DNA from: Methylovulum sp.
Lineage (GTDB): Bacteria > Pseudomonadota > Gammaproteobacteria > Methylococcales > Methylomonadaceae
DNA length: 34,407 nucleotides
NCBI GenBank assembly: GCA_030689765.1
Contig: JAUYEP010000295.1
Span: 1 to 34,407, forward strand
Direction: 5' to 3'
Below are positions 1,714-33,629 of the stretch, piece by piece (position 1 is the first letter of the stretch; every line of letters starts with the position of its first letter). Made by a program: the position numbers and the translations under genes. The notes beneath the pieces were generated by a model. That model saw only the letters and a program-made list of their open reading frames with translations. It did not search any database and was not told the origin of the DNA.

Positions 1714-2654
1714 GATGATTTTTCACTATGGCGGTGGTTAAGGAAATTCTGTATGAATCCAATCGCCGCCTTCCGTAACCGTTTGCGCCAAATCAATGCC
1801 GAGGTGTTGCATACGCCTATCCCGAGCTTAACTGAAGAAATGGCGCAAACCACCCAACGCTTACGCACGGAGTATGGCGATATTTCACGGGGCACGGGTG
1901 ATCAGCAAGGCATTGCGGCTGCGGTGATTGACTTCCTGCAAAACCATCAGTTGCCTACTTATCGCGACATCAAATATGTCTGTTTTGGTGTATCGTCACC
2001 CTACGGCATCCCTTTAACCCGCGTTATTGAACATGAATCGCTGTTCTCCAAGCTACTCAAAGAAGTCGGGCAACTACAATCCGAACCGCGCAAGTTTCGG
2101 CGCTGTTATCAAGGCTTGCTAAAAGCCTATTTACGTTATCCGGGTCAGCAAAGCGAACACACCACCGGACGTAATAATTGGTTAGCGTTACGCGAATTTC
2201 TGGCGCAACACTGCAAGGCTTTAAAACAGCAAAAACCAGTCTTGGAATGGGCGCAAGCCCTTTATGACCATCGTAATCTGCTGGCGGACAATCCCTGTAA
2301 ACCTTATGCTAAAGCCTTGCTGGCAGGCGATAGCACGGTTGTTGATGAACTTAAAGCCCGGCTTGGCATTGATGACGATACCTGGGTGATGAACGAGTTG
2401 GTACTGGCTCAAGTTCAGGCGGCAACGGCATTGAATGATTCAGCGTTTTTGCCCCAAGTGAAGCCTTTGGTGCAGCTTCTGGAACAGCATTCAGGGTTGA
2501 TCACTAAAGGTCTAGCTTTGTTGCTTAAACGCTATGAAATGTGTTTGGATCATACCGAACATCCTACACTCCGCGAAGCCGCACTAACTCAATGGAAAAG
2601 CCCTTGGTTGGATGCCAATAAACCACTGTGGTATGCACAGATTGGTGAGGCTGC

Positions 2655-2756
2655 CAATTTCCAGGCAGTAGTTATGCAGCCTATTTCTTCGGCTTGGGCA
2701 GGGGCTGCCAAAAAACCAAGGGATAATAAGCTGCAACGGACAAGTATTTTTTTCAT
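2655..2756 (-). pseudogene. creA: Fragment of creA (signal peptide and first mature residues) inside the 3' end of zorC
   Basis: Read on the minus strand from the ATG at 2756, this encodes MKKILVRCSLLSLGFL followed by AAPAQAEEIGCITTAWKL. It differs from the start of the intact creA at 9432 at only five of about 102 bases. Homology also covers the GAGAATGCT just before the ATG, and ends abruptly at the codons for WKL. The remaining three quarters of creA are absent. It is a duplicated, non-functional piece that landed in zorC in antisense orientation. Confidence 0.9.
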
Positions 2757-2784
2757 AGCATTCTCAAGTAGATTATGGGTAAGT

Positions 2785-2813
2785 GTAGGGGCGTTGCAAT
2801 GCGGTATCTCTAC
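2785..2813. repeat. 29-bp degenerate palindrome, related to the one at 27099
   Basis: It begins GTAGGGGCGTTGCA and ends GGTATCTCTAC. The perfect palindrome at 27099-27127 has the same length, the same GTAG...CTAC ends and the same TTGCA core. These are two members of one dispersed small palindrome family. Confidence 0.6.
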
Positions 2814-2846
2814 AAAGCACTGTATGCACACGATACGTTGCTGAGT

Positions 2847-2928
2847 ATGTTTCAATCCACAGCCGACCTCATCTGTCGGATGACAAAGCCACTGACAGAT
2901 AGAGGTCGGTGGACTATACCCCCCCGTG
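2847..2928. repeat. Dispersed hairpin repeat, copy 1
   Basis: It shares about 80 bases with 20775-20854, from ATGTTTCAATCCAC to CCCCCGTG. The two arms TCCAC..CCGACCTC.ATCTGTC and GACAGAT.GAGGTCGGTGGA pair into one long, nearly complete stem around a loop of about 12 bases. In this copy the outer stem CCGACCTC/GAGGTCGG is perfect; the inner stem has one G-T pair. The left end resembles the end of some CRISPR repeats (GTGGATTGAAAC on the minus strand), but there is no array. Confidence 0.8.
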
Positions 2929-2930
2929 GG

Positions 2931-3009
2931 CAGCAAAGCGAACGTGACCGCCTGTAAGGGCAAATTATCAGCTGCTGAATACCAAGGATTAGTGTTGGAG
3001 AACTGGGTA
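2931..3009 (+). pseudogene. vapBC remnant with a large internal deletion
   Basis: CAGCAAAGCGAACG...CTGTAA matches the last codons of vapB (1267-1295), giving QSERDRL then stop versus QSERDSL. It is followed by TTATCAGCTGCTGAA, matching the vapC start (TTATCAGATGCTGAA) with ATG changed to CTG. The next bases (2983-3009) encode QGLVL then ENWV, matching the very end of vapC. Most of the toxin gene, over 300 bases, is missing between. It is a second, scarred vapBC copy in the same orientation, downstream of zorC. Confidence 0.75.
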
Positions 3010-3093
3010 ACATGCAGCAATTCTCATTATGACTTTTAGGCGTTCATGCTGCTCGTCATTCCGGCATGGATGCTAAGAATCCAGTCACCAGGA

Positions 3094-3123
3094 GTGGAGT
3101 ACAAACCTAGGGTTGTACTCCAC
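3094..3123. repeat. Hairpin with 11-bp perfect stem
   Basis: GTGGAGTACAA and TTGTACTCCAC are exact inverted copies around an 8-base loop. No T-run follows on either side, so it is not a clear terminator. It lies in the gene-free stretch 3010-3300, which otherwise holds only repeats. Confidence 0.6.
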
Positions 3124-3163
3124 CAGCTAAATCTAATGTTATTAACCTAATCTGAAAATGCTG

Positions 3164-3233
3164 TAAGTATCTACACAAGTTTTATAGCACGTCATTCCGG
3201 AATGACGATGTTCAGGATTTATGTAGATACTTA
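3164..3233. repeat. 70-bp element with perfect 12-bp terminal inverted repeats
   Basis: TAAGTATCTACA at the left and TGTAGATACTTA at the right are exact inverted copies. Inside is the palindrome CGTCATTCCGGAATGACG. It abuts the truncated left side of the MITE at 3236. No coding potential is visible. Confidence 0.6.
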
Positions 3234-3235
3234 TA

Positions 3236-3327
3236 CTTTGAAAAAAGGGGATCGAGGGGCAGAGGGGCGTATCTAATAAAATCTCCCCTAACCCCTCTTT
3301 TTCAAAGAGGGGGAACTGAATAAGTAC
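3236..3327. mobile_element. IS66-like MITE, copy A (left end missing)
   Basis: It shares the core (TAATAAAATCTCCCCTAACCC) and the right end (GGGAACTGAATAAGTAC) with the copies at 9165, 25699 and 28289. The left terminal repeat is absent, replaced by the 70-bp element at 3164. The right end overlaps the helicase gene and gives it its last codons and stop. No 8-bp duplication can be seen because the left end is lost. Confidence 0.75.
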
Positions 3328-6007
3328 GTCCCGTCTTAGGGTAGCCAGAATGTTTATCTACCAACGCACCAAGCAAATCCCAGCGTTTTTCTGTCACCAT
3401 AATAAACTGGCATTTACCACCGGATAACTCTGCCCATAGCCCGCCGATCAATCTATCGGGTTCAGCCTCTTTCCACCCATTTTTACCTTTATATTCAACA
3501 ATCAAAATAGAAGCGTCAGGCAACTTACAAATAAAGTCTGGATAATACCGTCCAGTGGCCTGTTGAAAAAAGAATGAGCTGGTTGGTTTTTTCACCAAGT
3601 TCCGCACCCAAAATTTAATTTTTTGCCTCTCCGCCAGTTGGTCAAGACGGCAGGCGCATTCAAACTCTTCTTTAGAATCAAAATCGCCAATTTGCGGATA
3701 ATAATGGTGATTAAAAAGATAAAAACCGTATTCGCTGCTATTGGCTTCGTAATAGCTGCTTGGGGAATACTGTTGCGGGTGAAAGTCGAACAGATAACTA
3801 CTGCCCACACAAACCCTTTTCCGCACTTCATCACTGAACAAAAGGCTTTGATAAGCACTTTTTGCCGCTTGTTTCCGTAATCCGTCTATCCGTTGTTCAA
3901 GCAACACCCGAATGAAAAACTTTTGCTGATTGATGTGCGCCAACTGAAAATCTGCCAATAAGGCTTGCAACCAATGGCTGACAAAGGCCAGTTTGCTTTC
4001 GTGCGTTACCGTAGGGTCATGCAGCTGTCGGCAAAACCACGCGGCTAACTTGGTTTCAGTCCAATGTTCAGGCACATAAACCAAATCCAGATTGCGTTGC
4101 AAGTTTGCCATAAATTTTGAAAACGTCTTGCCTTGTTCAGTCACATCCAGCTCACCGCTTTCGGCGCTCTTCAGGCTATTTTTTAATTTGCTGATGTCAT
4201 CCGCTGTCGGCGTGGCATCCAATAACGATAAATCCCACGGATAATCAAGCATTTCGGTTTCATCAAATAGCTTTAGCTCGCCCTGAATATAAACCGCCAA
4301 TTGTGGAACGCTGATAACTTCGCCGCGTTCGGAAGGCGATTGAATAAAGGTGATCGCCGTGGTGCGGCTGCTTTCGGCGGCTTGTTCAATGGCGTTTTGT
4401 GCGGGTAGATCATCAACGGTAGCTTTTAATTCTTCCGTTTCTTTGAGTGTGAGCGGCGCGTTAATGGTCAAGGTGTTTGTGCCATTATCCCAAACCAGTT
4501 TTTCTTTTAAGGGCTTGGAAATGCCTTTAAACACGGGCTTGACCGATAATTGAACGGCGACGGGGTCGCTTTTAATGCGGCCTTGCAAGCGTTCCAAATC
4601 AAATTGGTCGGGTTTCGTGGCTTGGATAAAATCTTTAAGGTCTTTGCGGTCAAACCCTGCACCACTGACCAAGCGGTCACGCAAGGCTTCCGCCGTTTCT
4701 GAAAAATACCGCGACACCACAAACGCATAAGAACGGTTCAGTTCCGGCGTGTGGCGGTGGCTGGCATCCGGTTGGCGTAAAATCCGCCCTAATAATTGTT
4801 CCACCGCCGTTGATGAATGGATTGCCGCCATACTGACCAAAATATACGCAAACGGACAATCCCAACCTTCCGCCAAGGCTTTTTGGGTAATCACAAATTT
4901 AACCGGACACACGGGGTCGGAAATACCCAGTGCATAACCCGCCTCGCAGTCCCGTAACCCCCTTTCTTCGCCCGTTGCAACCACGATTTCATGCTCAGGG
5001 ATGGCATGGTTAGTTATCAATTCATCACGGACTTTATACACATCCAGCGTTTCAAAACCCGCGCGTTTGGGTTCAGCCTGAATCAACACCACAGGCCGCA
5101 AATACGCCGCGCCTTGACGCTGTTCCTGTTCGGCGAGGACGTGCAGCTCATTACGGCAAGCAATGGCATAGCCCAAGCATTTTTGCCAGTCAGGTTCAGT
5201 TTCCAAACGAATCGGCAGCTTTATCATTTCCTCCGTTTTCAACTCGACCGCCGACACGCTATGCAGCACATTGGACGGCGTTTTTTCGGTATCGGGCGTG
5301 GCGGTCAGTTCCATAATGCCGCTGGGGTTAAATTTAGCCAAAGTGTCAAAACCTAATTCCGTGCGGCTGTTATGGGCTTCATCGACAATGATAAACGGGC
5401 GGCGCAAGCGCAAGGCATTGGCTAATGAATAAGCCACCGTGTCATCGTCCCTGAGCAATTCGCTACGCTGTTCGGGTGACAGCGCTTCAAAATGCGACAT
5501 TAACGCGCCGTTATCGCTGTAAACTTTGCGGCCTTCCTCGTTTTCCACCTGAAACGCTTGCCGTGTGGCGACAATCACCGTGGTGGACGTGTTTAGCGTG
5601 GCGGCGGTCACGCTTTGCGCTTCATCCAACGCCAACACGTTAATATCACCCGCTTCCCGCAACGCGGCATGTAAGGGATGGTTTAAATCCTTCAAGCCTT
5701 TCAGCGTTTGCTCTTTGATTTGATTGGACGGCACAAGCCACAAAATCACGCTGTAGCCAGAACGTAACAAATGCGTGTTGATCAGTTTGACGCTTTTCGC
5801 CGCCAGCCAGGTTTTGCCGCCGCCCGTGGGAATGCGCAGACAAAAATACGGCATATCCTCAGAAAAACCGGACAGTCCGTTATAGGGCATAGTGGTCAGG
5901 CTATAAAAAGCCAGTGAGGGGCTGGGTAAGGTATGGCAAGCCTTAAAATATTCTTCGATTCGGCTTAAGACCTGTTTTTGATAGGTTTTGGGTTCAAAAT
6001 AGCGCAT
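3302..6007 (-). CDS. Type III restriction-like DEAD/DEAH helicase with C-terminal PD-(D/E)xK nuclease, solitary
   Basis: This 901-residue cytoplasmic protein has SF2 helicase motifs in order: Walker A RIPTGGGKT (about residues 58-66), DEAH (209-212), TATP (235-238) and motif VI QLLGRILRQ (404-412). Near residues 820-840, YPDFICKL...IVEYKGK is a PD-ExK nuclease core as in type III Res subunits. The start at 6007 is preferred over a TTG at 6037 because TTAAGG precedes the ATG and the conserved sequence begins there. No Mod methyltransferase gene lies beside it, so it is not a standard type III restriction pair. It may act alone in defence or DNA repair. It is convergent with the Zorya genes and therefore not in their operon. 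The last seven to eight codons (TYSVPPL) and the TGA come from the MITE, so the native C-terminus was altered. Confidence 0.85.
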   Translation of the reverse strand: MRYFEPKTYQKQVLSRIEEYFKACHTLPSPSLAFYSLTTMPYNGLSGFSEDMPYFCLRIPTGGGKTWLAAKSVKLINTHLLRSGYSVILWLVPSNQIKEQTLKGLKDLNHPLHAALREAGDINVLALDEAQSVTAATLNTSTTVIVATRQAFQVENEEGRKVYSDNGALMSHFEALSPEQRSELLRDDDTVAYSLANALRLRRPFIIVDEAHNSRTELGFDTLAKFNPSGIMELTATPDTEKTPSNVLHSVSAVELKTEEMIKLPIRLETEPDWQKCLGYAIACRNELHVLAEQEQRQGAAYLRPVVLIQAEPKRAGFETLDVYKVRDELITNHAIPEHEIVVATGEERGLRDCEAGYALGISDPVCPVKFVITQKALAEGWDCPFAYILVSMAAIHSSTAVEQLLGRILRQPDASHRHTPELNRSYAFVVSRYFSETAEALRDRLVSGAGFDRKDLKDFIQATKPDQFDLERLQGRIKSDPVAVQLSVKPVFKGISKPLKEKLVWDNGTNTLTINAPLTLKETEELKATVDDLPAQNAIEQAAESSRTTAITFIQSPSERGEVISVPQLAVYIQGELKLFDETEMLDYPWDLSLLDATPTADDISKLKNSLKSAESGELDVTEQGKTFSKFMANLQRNLDLVYVPEHWTETKLAAWFCRQLHDPTVTHESKLAFVSHWLQALLADFQLAHINQQKFFIRVLLEQRIDGLRKQAAKSAYQSLLFSDEVRKRVCVGSSYLFDFHPQQYSPSSYYEANSSEYGFYLFNHHYYPQIGDFDSKEEFECACRLDQLAERQKIKFWVRNLVKKPTSSFFFQQATGRYYPDFICKLPDASILIVEYKGKNGWKEAEPDRLIGGLWAELSGGKCQFIMVTEKRWDLLGALVDKHSGYPKTGRTYSVPPL

Positions 6008-6043
6008 AACAGCCTTAATAGAAGCGTTGAAAATCAATTTATC

Positions 6044-28437: not shown

Positions 28438-30330
28438 TCACCATTGCAATGCGCGCAAACGCGAGAATTTTTTCCGTTGATGTTCCTGCATACGGATCAT
28501 CACATTCACCAGGGCGGCTATCGCATCCAATATATAGGGGCCTTTGTTCAACATCACGCATTCGGCGCGGACAGCCATTGCCGCATCGGTAAATTCAGGC
28601 CGTGACCGGACGCCTTTTTTGGCGATGGACTCCAGGACCTGCGTCGCCCAAATCACCGGCACATGCGCAGCCTCGCATACCCAAAGCAATTCTTCCTGAA
28701 TTTCGGCAAGACGCGCGCTGCCCAGTTCGACGGCCAAATCGCCTCTGGCAATCATGATGCCAAGGCTGTGTCGGCCGAGGGTGCCAAGAATAATATCGGG
28801 CAGATTTTTTACCGCAAGGTTGGTTTCGATTTTGGCAATAATGGGTATATCGGTTGCGTTGCGTTTGGCGAGCTCGGACATTAAATAATCCATGTCCGCC
28901 AAAGTTTCGACGAAAGAAAAACCGATCAAATCGGCATGTGTGCAGGCAAAATCAAGGTCAATCAAATCTTTTTCGCTTAACGGTGACAAGCACAGATCGG
29001 TGTCGGGAAAGTTGATGCCCTTATCGCTTTGTATGCCCACGCCGCCGCTACGTGCCTGATTGACGCGCAGTAACGCGCCTTGCCCGGAAATATTTTCCAC
29101 GATGGCGCCAAGCTTGCCATCGTCTATCCAAACCGGCTGGCCGATGGTCAGTTTGGTGCTGAATGACGACAAGGTGCAACCAATTTGAGCGGGCTTTATC
29201 AAGACGCCGTTTTCATCATATTCAGCTGGCGTACCGACGGCATTATTTTCTGTCAACAACAATAAGTCATTCTTGAACAGGCGTATTTCCAGCGGCTCAC
29301 CAGTAAACAGGCCCAGATTAAATTTATCAGCAGTATCAGCCTCATGCTTATCCGGCTCAAGCAGCGTCAATTCACATCTGGACATCAGGTAACTGCTCTG
29401 GTTGCAGCTAACCAGCCACTCGGTATCGGAAATTGCTGGTCCTATTAGCAAATGGCGCTGTTTTTGCCTCGCATCAATAAATGCCAAACGGCATCCAGGG
29501 TTGAGCCGTTTATGGAGCGCTTCAGGAATGGATACGCGAAACAGGGTGGTAATGCCGTCTGTCATTTCCGGTTCTGGTGTGCTGCCCGTGGTTAAGATTA
29601 ATTGTTCGGCGGCGATTATTTTTCCGCAAACATCTTTTTTTACTTTGATGTGACGTACAGGCGAACCCAGCGCAATCGCACCGGTGCGAATTTTGTGGCC
29701 GGCAAGATCCATTAAAATGCGGCAGATTTTGCCTGTTTCTGTTTCGGCACGGCGGATATTTCGGATCATGCGCCGCCAAAGTACGGGGTCATCGTGGGCA
29801 CAATTGATTCTGGCGCAGGTCATGCCATTTTTCAGCAAGGCCAGGATCAGATCGTAATTCCAGGCGGTATCGGTCGCCAGCGTCACCATGACATGAACTT
29901 TGCTGTGCTCATGAAACGGGCCGAACAATTCGATGCTGTGCTGATCCAATAATTGCAAGCCACGGTTAAAGCCATATTCGGTTGGATTTTTGCCGTCAGG
30001 CAAGTACGACTTGTCAGTGGCCCGTTTTAATACTTCGATGACCGCATCGAGCGTCGATAATACCGAGGCTTCCGACCGGCCCAGCGATGACAAGCCCGCC
30101 TGGGCCAGCCGATCTTGTAAGTGGCGCAGGTCAAACTGCCTCAGCGCCAGATAATGGGCGAGATTGCAGGCGCTTCGGTTAAATACGCCGGCTTGGTAAT
30201 TCGCCTTGTATTTGTGCAGGCGGTTAACCGCATTCTGCTCAATTTCCTGGCGCAAATCAGAAACTTCCAGCAGCAGTTGTTTAAGCGTGTCATCGTAAAT
30301 ATCGCGGTTGTTTGGCGATGGATTGGTCAT
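28438..30330 (-). CDS. Atypical pyruvate kinase with N-terminal extension, lacking the C-terminal domain
   Basis: The 630-residue protein has an extra helical N-terminal part of about 140 residues before a pyruvate kinase barrel. Active-site motifs are present: ARINCAHD (174-179), MDLAGHKIRTG (207-217), PIIAKIET with the catalytic Lys, MIARGDLAVELG and WATQVLES. The usual regulatory C-terminal domain is absent, as the protein ends soon after MLNKGPYILDAI. In muscle-enzyme numbering, position 113 is Leu (Leu209) instead of Thr, 117 is Lys (Lys213) instead of Glu, and one K+ ligand Ser is Ala (Ala178). Leu113 with Lys117 marks K+-independent pyruvate kinases. The reaction is phosphoenolpyruvate plus ADP to pyruvate plus ATP, if catalysis is intact. 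The start at 30330 is followed directly by the helical extension. Confidence 0.85.
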   Translation of the reverse strand: MTNPSPNNRDIYDDTLKQLLLEVSDLRQEIEQNAVNRLHKYKANYQAGVFNRSACNLAHYLALRQFDLRHLQDRLAQAGLSSLGRSEASVLSTLDAVIEVLKRATDKSYLPDGKNPTEYGFNRGLQLLDQHSIELFGPFHEHSKVHVMVTLATDTAWNYDLILALLKNGMTCARINCAHDDPVLWRRMIRNIRRAETETGKICRILMDLAGHKIRTGAIALGSPVRHIKVKKDVCGKIIAAEQLILTTGSTPEPEMTDGITTLFRVSIPEALHKRLNPGCRLAFIDARQKQRHLLIGPAISDTEWLVSCNQSSYLMSRCELTLLEPDKHEADTADKFNLGLFTGEPLEIRLFKNDLLLLTENNAVGTPAEYDENGVLIKPAQIGCTLSSFSTKLTIGQPVWIDDGKLGAIVENISGQGALLRVNQARSGGVGIQSDKGINFPDTDLCLSPLSEKDLIDLDFACTHADLIGFSFVETLADMDYLMSELAKRNATDIPIIAKIETNLAVKNLPDIILGTLGRHSLGIMIARGDLAVELGSARLAEIQEELLWVCEAAHVPVIWATQVLESIAKKGVRSRPEFTDAAMAVRAECVMLNKGPYILDAIAALVNVMIRMQEHQRKKFSRLRALQW

Positions 30331-30888: not shown

Positions 30889-30914
30889 TACATTCTATGC
30901 AATAAGCCCACACA

Positions 30915-31419
30915 ATGAATTCTTCTACCGAAGCACGCCATAGCCATTCCGATGCCTTAGGACACGGTCATAAACAGTGTGTCAGTGAAGCATTAGGTGC
31001 TGCCGAAAATTTGTGTTTGGCAAGAGGCGTACATTTAACCCCTATTCGTCACCAAGTGCTGGAGTTGATTTGGGACAGCCATAAAGCGGTTAAAGCCTAT
31101 GAGTTGTTGGATCGGATCAAACCTTCACAACAGCCCGCGACAATTTAAGGGCACTGGATTTTTTGATCGAACAAGGCTTTATACATCGGGTAGAAAGCCT
31201 TAATGCCTTTATTGGTTGCAGTTGTTCTGGGCATCAACATGAATTGTTACTGTTAATTTGTAAGCACTGCTAATGAAGTCGAGGAGCGCCTTACCCAGAA
31301 AGTGATGGCAACCTTGTCGCAAGAGTTTTTCTCAAGCAGGCTTTATTGTGCATAGTAAGGCAATAGAAGCCCAGGGAGTTTGCGTTAAACGTCTAGGGGT
31401 TGAGGATACTCAAAACTGA
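30915..31419 (+). pseudogene. zur: Zur-type zinc uptake regulator (Fur family), broken by several frameshifts
   Basis: The first frame (30915-31148) encodes a His-rich start and the winged-helix beginning LTPIRHQVLELIWDSHKAVKAYELLDRI, then hits TAA. With one base restored near 31146 it continues as RALDFLIEQGFIHRVESLNAFIGCSCSGHQHELLLLICKHC split over a second break at about 31272, then NEVEERLTQKV..TLSQEFF and, after a third shift near 31325, QAGFIVHSKAIEAQGVCVKRLG to a TGA at 31417. The fragments follow Zur in order, including the CxxC of ICKHC. Three or more independent shifts within 200 bases, beside intact genes, argue for real decay. An intact Zur elsewhere would be needed for the operators here to matter. 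Confidence 0.88.
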
Positions 31420-31497
31420 TTTGTTGGGAATGCCGGGAAGTATTTTTAACATCTATGGGCATGTAAAATCATTTTTGAAATGGCGGTGATTACTCTT

Positions 31498-31520
31498 TTA
31501 AAGTTATGTTATAACATTTC
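31498..31520 (+). promoter_or_regulatory. Zur box upstream of the TonB receptor gene
   Basis: The right half TATAACATTTC (31510-31520) matches the 23-bp Zur consensus exactly; the left half TTAAAGTTATG matches at 7 of 11. Together 18 of 22 informative positions agree. It lies 60 bases before the receptor start, where a repressor site is expected. Confidence 0.7.
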
Positions 31521-31580
31521 TAATTGCTGTGGTTCACTCTACACCCTACTGTTTTCATTAAATATAGAAATAAGCATCAT

Positions 31581-33629
31581 ATGAAAAAATCCGATATTTA
31601 TTACCTTTTATTAGCTATGGCAATAGTGCCGACAGCTTATGCAGTTGAACAGAGCATCGTGGAACTGGACCAAGTGGTTGTCACTGCACCCTTGGCAGAA
31701 AAGGTCTCTGACACAGCTACCCCCGTTACGGTTTTAGCGGAAGATGAACTCCGTTTAAAAGTCGGACACAGCATCGGCGAAACCCTGAAAAACGAACTCG
31801 GCATCACCAGCCAATCTTTCGGCTCCGGTGTTGGCACACCCGTGATACGCGGGCAAAGCGGGCCACGGGTGCGGGTGTTGAATAACGGCATCGGCAGTAA
31901 CGATGCTTCTGCAATCAGCCCTGACCATGCGACCAGCGTCGAGCCATTGCTGGCAGAGCGCATAGAAGTATTACGTGGCCCTGCCACCCTGCTTTACGGT
32001 AGCGGCGCGATAGGCGGCGTGGTTAACGTCATCGACAATCGTATCCCCGAACAACTGCCGGAAAAACTCTTAGGCGGCGCGTTGGAACAACGTTTTGATT
32101 CAGTTTCTGACGAAACCGCCACCACCATGAAACTGGAAGGCGGCAAAGACCACATCGCCTACCATATCGACGGTTTTTTCCGTGACCGTGGCAACGTTGA
32201 TATTGGCGGCAACGCCATTGACATCAACGCCGCACGGAAAGTTGACCCGACTTTGCCAGACACCTTGCAAAGCACCCACGGCTTTATTAACAACAGCAGC
32301 AGCGATGCGATCAGCGGCTCGGCGGGCTTGTCGCTAGTCGGCGAACCAGGCTTTGCAGGCGTATCCATCAACCGCCTGGAAAACAACTATGGCATCGCCC
32401 CTGACGGCACAGGCGGCGAAATCGTCCGCATTGATCTGAAACAAAGCAAATATGATTTGAAAAGCGAGCTGAAAAATCCGTTCCCTTTTGCCGAATCGCT
32501 ACGCATGAAACTGGGCTACACCGACTACCAACACACCGAAGTGCCCAACGGACAAGAAGCGGCATTTTTTACCAACAAAACCTACGAAAGCCGCTTGGAA
32601 TTGACCCACAAACCGATTGCCGGATTGCACGGCGCGTTGGGTTTTCAAGCCATTGCCAGCGACTTTGCCGCGATTGATAAAGAAACTGGTGATGCCCTTG
32701 TGCCGCAATCATTGACCAACAGCTACGGCGTGTTTGCCGTCGAATCCTTCAAACTAGGAACGCTGAACAACCAGCTCGGTTTCCGGGTGGAAGATACAAC
32801 TATTGCCCCCGAAGGCTTGGGCAGCCTGAATTACGTTCCCGTTAGCGCGTCCGCGTCCAGTCTGTGGAAAATCAACGACAGCAATAACCTCAATCTGGCG
32901 ATAACCCGCTCCCAACGTGCGCCGCAAGTGCAAGAATTGCTTGCCAACGGTTTTCACGATGCCACCCGCAGTTTCGAAGTCGGCGATGTCAATTTGCGTG
33001 AAGAAACTTCGTATAACTTAGATTTGGGTTACAAATTTAAAACCGACTGGATGCGTGCGGAGATAGACCTGTTCCACAACTGGGCCAACGATTACATCTA
33101 CCAACAGCGCAATGGACAATTTGTTGATGAAGACGGGGTTATTTGTCCTCCAGACACCCCTTGTTTCCCCGTGGTCGAAAGCCGCCAAGCCGATGCCACC
33201 TTTATGGGTTACGAAAGCAAGCTGATTTTCCCGCTGATGGAAAATCACTATGGCTTAGTCGATTTGACCCTGTTCAGCGACTACACCCGTGGGCAATTCG
33301 TCAACGGTGGTGATGTGCCACGGATGCCGCCATTACGTTTCGGCTTCCAACTCGACCATATCAAAGGCGACTGGAACAGTAACCTGCGCCTAACTCGTGG
33401 CGAAGCCCAAGGCCGCCCAGGCGATTTCGACACCGCCACCGCCAGCTATGTACAGCTTAACTTGAGTACCCAATACCTTATCAAGCAAATCAAAGACGTG
33501 GACGTGATGGTGTTTGCCAAAGCCAATAACTTGCTGGATGAGAATATCCGCAATTCAACCTCGTACTTGCGGAATTTTGCACCAGAGCCAGGTAGAGGCG
33601 CGGAGATAGGGGTCAGAGTGAATTATTGA
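31581..33629 (+). CDS. znuD: TonB-dependent outer-membrane receptor, ZnuD-like
   Basis: The 682-residue protein has a signal peptide (cleavage after TAYA, about residue 21), a TonB box region (ELDQVVVTAP), a plug domain with TPVIRGQSGPRVRVLNNG and RIEVLRGPATLLYGSGAIGGVVNVID, and a 22-strand barrel ending in an aromatic-rich last strand (GRGAEIGVRVNY). The length and plug sequence fit the ZnuD group of zinc or zinc-complex receptors, and the Zur box upstream supports zinc. The start at 31581 begins the signal peptide; an upstream TTG frame does not. The gene is intact although the regulator and GTPase genes on both sides are damaged. Confidence 0.85.
   Translation: MKKSDIYYLLLAMAIVPTAYAVEQSIVELDQVVVTAPLAEKVSDTATPVTVLAEDELRLKVGHSIGETLKNELGITSQSFGSGVGTPVIRGQSGPRVRVLNNGIGSNDASAISPDHATSVEPLLAERIEVLRGPATLLYGSGAIGGVVNVIDNRIPEQLPEKLLGGALEQRFDSVSDETATTMKLEGGKDHIAYHIDGFFRDRGNVDIGGNAIDINAARKVDPTLPDTLQSTHGFINNSSSDAISGSAGLSLVGEPGFAGVSINRLENNYGIAPDGTGGEIVRIDLKQSKYDLKSELKNPFPFAESLRMKLGYTDYQHTEVPNGQEAAFFTNKTYESRLELTHKPIAGLHGALGFQAIASDFAAIDKETGDALVPQSLTNSYGVFAVESFKLGTLNNQLGFRVEDTTIAPEGLGSLNYVPVSASASSLWKINDSNNLNLAITRSQRAPQVQELLANGFHDATRSFEVGDVNLREETSYNLDLGYKFKTDWMRAEIDLFHNWANDYIYQQRNGQFVDEDGVICPPDTPCFPVVESRQADATFMGYESKLIFPLMENHYGLVDLTLFSDYTRGQFVNGGDVPRMPPLRFGFQLDHIKGDWNSNLRLTRGEAQGRPGDFDTATASYVQLNLSTQYLIKQIKDVDVMVFAKANNLLDENIRNSTSYLRNFAPEPGRGAEIGVRVNY

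Follow-up and report, generated by a model that had tools for sequence, protein, structure and literature searches.

A long-form accessory pyruvate kinase of Methylovulum sp. with a family-specific N-terminal domain and a probable second lid copy

The gene at 28438–30330 (minus strand) of the window, which is the whole analysed stretch of 34,407 nucleotides from Methylovulum sp., most likely encodes an accessory pyruvate kinase that is functional and belongs to the PRK14725/Pyk2 type; the enzyme is predicted to convert phosphoenolpyruvate and ADP into pyruvate and ATP. The protein is a member of this family, its barrel holds every catalytic residue checked, the C-terminal regulatory domain (C-domain) is absent, and a helical N-terminal domain is present. 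The type is already named in databases (PRK14725), and one case has been studied, in Corynebacterium. The link of the family genes with phosphate and polyphosphate genes is new here. This link and an apparent second copy of the lid domain are the points most worth pursuing; both offer handles on the regulation and purpose of a pyruvate kinase without a C-domain.

Gene and family membership

The open reading frame starts with ATG, contains no internal stops and encodes 630 amino acids followed by a stop codon. The coordinates given in the preliminary description, the strand and the length are correct. A purine-rich stretch resembling a ribosome-binding site is located immediately 5' of the ATG, and a clear promoter or terminator was not found at the gene. 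In the search with NF011314, which is the NCBIfam model for the PRK14725 pyruvate kinase, residues 12–629 match with 662.8 bits (E = 4e-199), above the curated whole-protein cut-off of 642 bits. The Pfam pyruvate kinase barrel profile matches the protein in two pieces. The AlphaFold model shows a mean pLDDT of 86.8, and its fold matches solved pyruvate kinases. The earlier identification as a pyruvate kinase is thus supported by fold, sequence and conserved catalytic residues.

An ordinary pyruvate kinase (L001) is also encoded on another contig of the same draft genome, the nearest named relatives of which are Methylococcaceae. Scores above the NF011314 cut-off were obtained in 7 of 299 Pseudomonadota genomes and in 27 of 369 genomes of the class. 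Within the genus, the family gene is patchy, and an ordinary pyruvate kinase is present in almost every genome. The family relatives were drawn from several phyla. Only two relatives were detected on viral contigs, and the protein gave no meaningful match against the viral structure library. The third isozyme of Vibrio cholerae was considered as a relative and rejected, as the V. cholerae gene (1461 bp) is of ordinary length.

Domain architecture

All features of the gene are on the minus strand. Residues 1–143 (29902–30330) form a family-specific N-terminal domain, delineated by family conservation and helical in the model; the extra front of about 140 residues reported earlier is real, with a length of about 143. 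No significant relative of this domain was found by sequence in Pfam or PDB, and thus its role is a guess. The first part of the barrel comprises residues 144–216 (29683–29901), which correspond by alignment to positions 4–87 of the Pfam PK profile. The barrel match is split by an insert of about 135 residues in the B (lid) domain, a feature absent from the preliminary description. The insert spans residues 217–352 (29275–29682) and, by profile comparison and fold search, is probably a second B-domain copy in degenerate form. The B domain proper, residues 350–446 (28993–29283), has a conserved Asp-Asp-Gly motif and matches the canonical B-domain profile with a probability of 99%. The second part of the barrel, residues 447–630 (28441–28992), was located by profile match and alignment, and carries the equivalents of Lys269, Glu271, Asp295 and Thr327. 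The protein stops just past the barrel, in agreement with the earlier statement that the C-terminal regulatory domain is absent.

In the profile comparison, the insert matches the B domain with a probability of 91% (P = 1e-6, 57 columns), and unrelated profile pairs (the insert against the N-terminal domain, and the N-terminal domain against canonical B domains) gave no match. The direct comparison of the insert with canonical B domains is weak (probability of 11%). The insert modelled alone shows a mean pLDDT of 83.4. In the fold search of the PDB with this model, the ten best matches are all pyruvate kinases with E-values of 0.016 or higher, and thus the fold matches are support and not proof. 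The simplest reading of these sequence and model comparisons is that the lid is probably duplicated and that the outer copy has degenerated. The insert is missing from four of the 30 members of the first alignment. These members are basal in the family tree under midpoint rooting, which fits a single gain of the insert. In the open-licence literature, no description of a duplicated pyruvate kinase lid was found.

Signature and catalytic residues

The signature MDLAGHKIRTG corresponds to residues 207–217 (29680–29712). Aligned with ordinary enzymes and numbered as in the muscle enzyme, the stretch from 112 to 120 is Asp112-Leu113-Ala114-Gly115-His116-Lys117-Ile118-Arg119-Thr120, and Ala is located at position 76. 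Thus, Leu113 and Lys117 are as described previously, and the Ala that was said to replace a Ser ligand of K+ is Ala76. Among 106 relatives, many of them from other phyla, Lys117 is found in 105, Ala76 in 105, Thr120 in 102 and Leu113 in 100. Ala114 predominates in the long-form family. His116, in place of the usual Pro, is a subgroup feature (40 of the 106). The Ser-Gly/Ala-Glu motif of ordinary enzymes near the end of the barrel is missing in the family, and Asn-Lys is observed there. The catalytic set of the superfamily (Arg72, Asn74, Asp112, Arg119, Lys269, Glu271, Asp295 and Thr327) is complete in the 630-residue protein, and the equivalent residues are invariant in the 106 relatives except Asp112, which is nearly so.

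In the ordinary pyruvate kinase of this genome, the corresponding sequence is Asp-Leu-Gln-Gly-Pro-Lys-Ile-Arg-Ile, the classical K+-independent pattern. As this enzyme also has Leu113 and Lys117, Lys117 is no distinguishing mark of the long protein. Leu113, Lys117, Ala76, the absent C-domain and the front of about 143 residues are features of the whole type and are not peculiar to the 28438–30330 gene.

Gene neighbourhoods

Phosphate-uptake or polyphosphate genes are located near 27 of 128 family loci, whereas the 40 control loci of ordinary pyruvate kinases, all from Pseudomonadota, have no such neighbours (Fisher p = 3e-4). The neighbourhoods were the fetched flanks, mostly of about 8 kb, and the gene classes counted (PstSCAB, PhoU, polyphosphate kinase, exopolyphosphatase, CHAD proteins and SixA) were picked after they recurred in the first locus set. 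In a later gammaproteobacterial set, some genomes of which may overlap the first set, the counts are 5 of 30 and 0 of 40 (p = 0.012). The phosphate-linked neighbours are spread over several phyla, and several are immediate neighbours on the same strand; for example, ppk1 lies 99 bp away in L064, and the distance to a pst permease gene in L086 is 107 bp. The glycogen phosphorylase gene is also found repeatedly near the family gene in relatives. At the 28438–30330 locus, no phosphate-linked genes were found within the window, and no Pho box was detected before the gene (the best site matches 12 of 18 positions, the chance level). Across the family, Pho boxes show a weak excess only.

Several other neighbours were observed. 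In the methanotroph relatives L064, L065, L068, L154 and L158, the glycogen phosphorylase gene adjoins the family pyruvate kinase gene, and polyphosphate kinase is also present in L064. Near the family gene, a ParA-type ATPase is encoded repeatedly (L095, L099, L100, L121, L123, L204, L209 and L222), in some cases with CHAD proteins, and a P-type cation-transporting ATPase is likewise found in L195, L203, L219, L082, L087, L096 and L155.

The neighbourhood of the 28438–30330 gene contains flagellar genes together with genes for a GGDEF protein and a zinc-type TonB receptor. The receptor, encoded at 31524–33629 (plus strand), is TonB-dependent and shows the best likeness to the zinc-piracy receptor ZnuD, with 404 bits, below the cut-off of 950. 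Between the pyruvate kinase gene and the receptor gene, a Fur/Zur-like reading at 30903–31520 (plus strand) is broken across frames; it is probably a zinc-uptake regulator, either broken or mis-assembled. The palindromes TGTTATATTATAACA (30873) and GTTATGTTATAAC (31503) are located near this reading and before the receptor gene. At 1753–6037, an EH_Signature-domain protein adjoins a large ResIII helicase-like protein, and the pair is possibly part of a defence system. The Rfam search of the window gave a tRNA and nothing else.

Function and regulation

The K+-independent signature pointed out in the preliminary description is present (Leu113 and Lys117 in DLAGHKIRT), but it is common to the family and to the ordinary enzyme of the genome. 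We consider the chances even that the 630-residue protein works as a pyruvate kinase without K+, with Lys117 substituting for the charge of K+ as in the published cluster II enzymes. The characterised Lys117 enzymes are K+-independent (PMC8835810), Leu113 accompanies Lys117 in the present protein, and Ala76 removes a ligand of K+. The consensus of the cluster II K+-independent enzymes, Gln114 with Leu, Ile or Val at 120, covers 77% of the Lys117 sequences (PMC8835810); the present protein has Ala114 and Thr120. Thr120, kept almost throughout the family, is tied to lid closure in K+-dependent enzymes, but the muscle-enzyme mutant T113L/K114Q/E117K gains K+-independent activity (PMC8835810) and keeps Thr120, as does the 630-residue protein. 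In the tree, which was built without the signature columns and rooted at the midpoint, the 24 family members tested form their own clade, separate from ordinary enzymes with Glu117 or Lys117, with a moderate support of 71. The tree against K+-dependent and K+-independent forms that had been proposed previously separates the family but nests it in neither, and the separation from the ordinary Lys117 enzymes may argue against K+-independence. Pyk2 (NCgl2809) of C. glutamicum, the sole characterised relative found for the family, also argues against it. Pyk2 is reported to show an absolute dependence on Mn2+ together with a monovalent cation, and the activities relative to K+ are 73% with NH4+, 51% with Na+ and 38% with Li+ (PMC5112673). 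No ionic-strength control is described in the part of the methods consulted, and the cation dependence could therefore be partly an ionic-strength effect. As Lys117 and Thr120 are combined in the family, the need for K+ is not decided by the sequence alone. With the signature shared by the whole family and the ordinary enzyme, and with the cation need of Pyk2, K+-independence is possible and only a prediction. For bound K+, Lys117, Leu113 and Ala76 would speak against it, and Thr120 and the Pyk2 data would speak for it.

A tentative and somewhat doubtful reading is that the enzyme acts mainly in phosphate or polyphosphate metabolism, perhaps sensing phosphate, polyphosphate or sugar phosphates via its extra domains. 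The excess of phosphate-linked genes over the control loci in several phyla, the immediate same-strand neighbours and the recurrent glycogen phosphorylase are consistent with it, but most family loci, including the present one, are without such neighbours, the Pho box data are negative here and weak elsewhere, and the gene classes were chosen after their recurrence. Moonlighting, suggested previously together with unusual regulation, found nothing in its favour. The changes adjacent to the active site (His116, Ala76 and the lost Ser-Gly/Ala-Glu motif) and the extra domains might point to a non-catalytic or moonlighting relative, but such a relative is very improbable, given the near-invariant catalytic set and Pyk2, which shows activity both in vitro and in vivo and complements a pyk double mutant (PMC5112673). 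Unusual regulation is plausible by analogy with Pyk2.

In a working accessory pyruvate kinase, which is the preferred reading, catalysis would occur at the standard site beneath the inner, conserved lid. Pyk2 elutes as a hexamer and is activated by FBP without a C-domain (PMC5112673). Thus, the N-terminal domain and the outer lid copy may take over the part of the lost C-domain in oligomerisation and the effector response. The long-form enzyme would serve particular conditions, such as phosphate or storage-polymer metabolism or low oxygen, and housekeeping glycolysis would be left to the ordinary pyruvate kinase of the genome.

Comparison with known enzymes

The near-universal Lys117 of the family, set against the cation requirement reported for Pyk2 (PMC5112673), bears on the published rule that Lys117 enzymes are K+-independent (PMC8835810). 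It is conceivable, though unlikely, that the family is a widespread third lineage of pyruvate kinases, in which Lys117 is nearly fixed and at least one member is cation-dependent, regulation has shifted from a lost C-domain to the duplicated lid and a new N-terminal domain, and a link to phosphate and polyphosphate exists.

The ordinary cluster II enzymes, such as that of the same genome, share with the family the barrel, the catalytic residues, Leu113 and Lys117. They have Gln114, Leu/Ile/Val120, Ser76 and a C-domain, whereas the long-form family mostly has Ala114, with Thr120, Ala76, the N-terminal domain and the lid insert, and no C-domain. The short family members (L011–L014 and L144) have the N-terminal domain, the barrel and Lys117, and also lack the C-domain, but they have a single lid and consist of about 500 amino acids.

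The closest studied enzyme is Pyk2. The C. glutamicum genome gives an NF011314 match above the cut-off (E ≤ 1e-150), and Pyk2, compared here by its description, is taken as a family member from this match and its published layout. According to PMC5112673, Pyk2 is nearly the same size as the present protein, with an N-terminal extension of about 120 residues and no C-domain, and its barrel is in two parts (128–213 and 346–606) with about 130 residues between them. The same source places the Pyk2 gene in an operon with ldhA, induced by oxygen deprivation, whereas the 28438–30330 gene has other neighbours.
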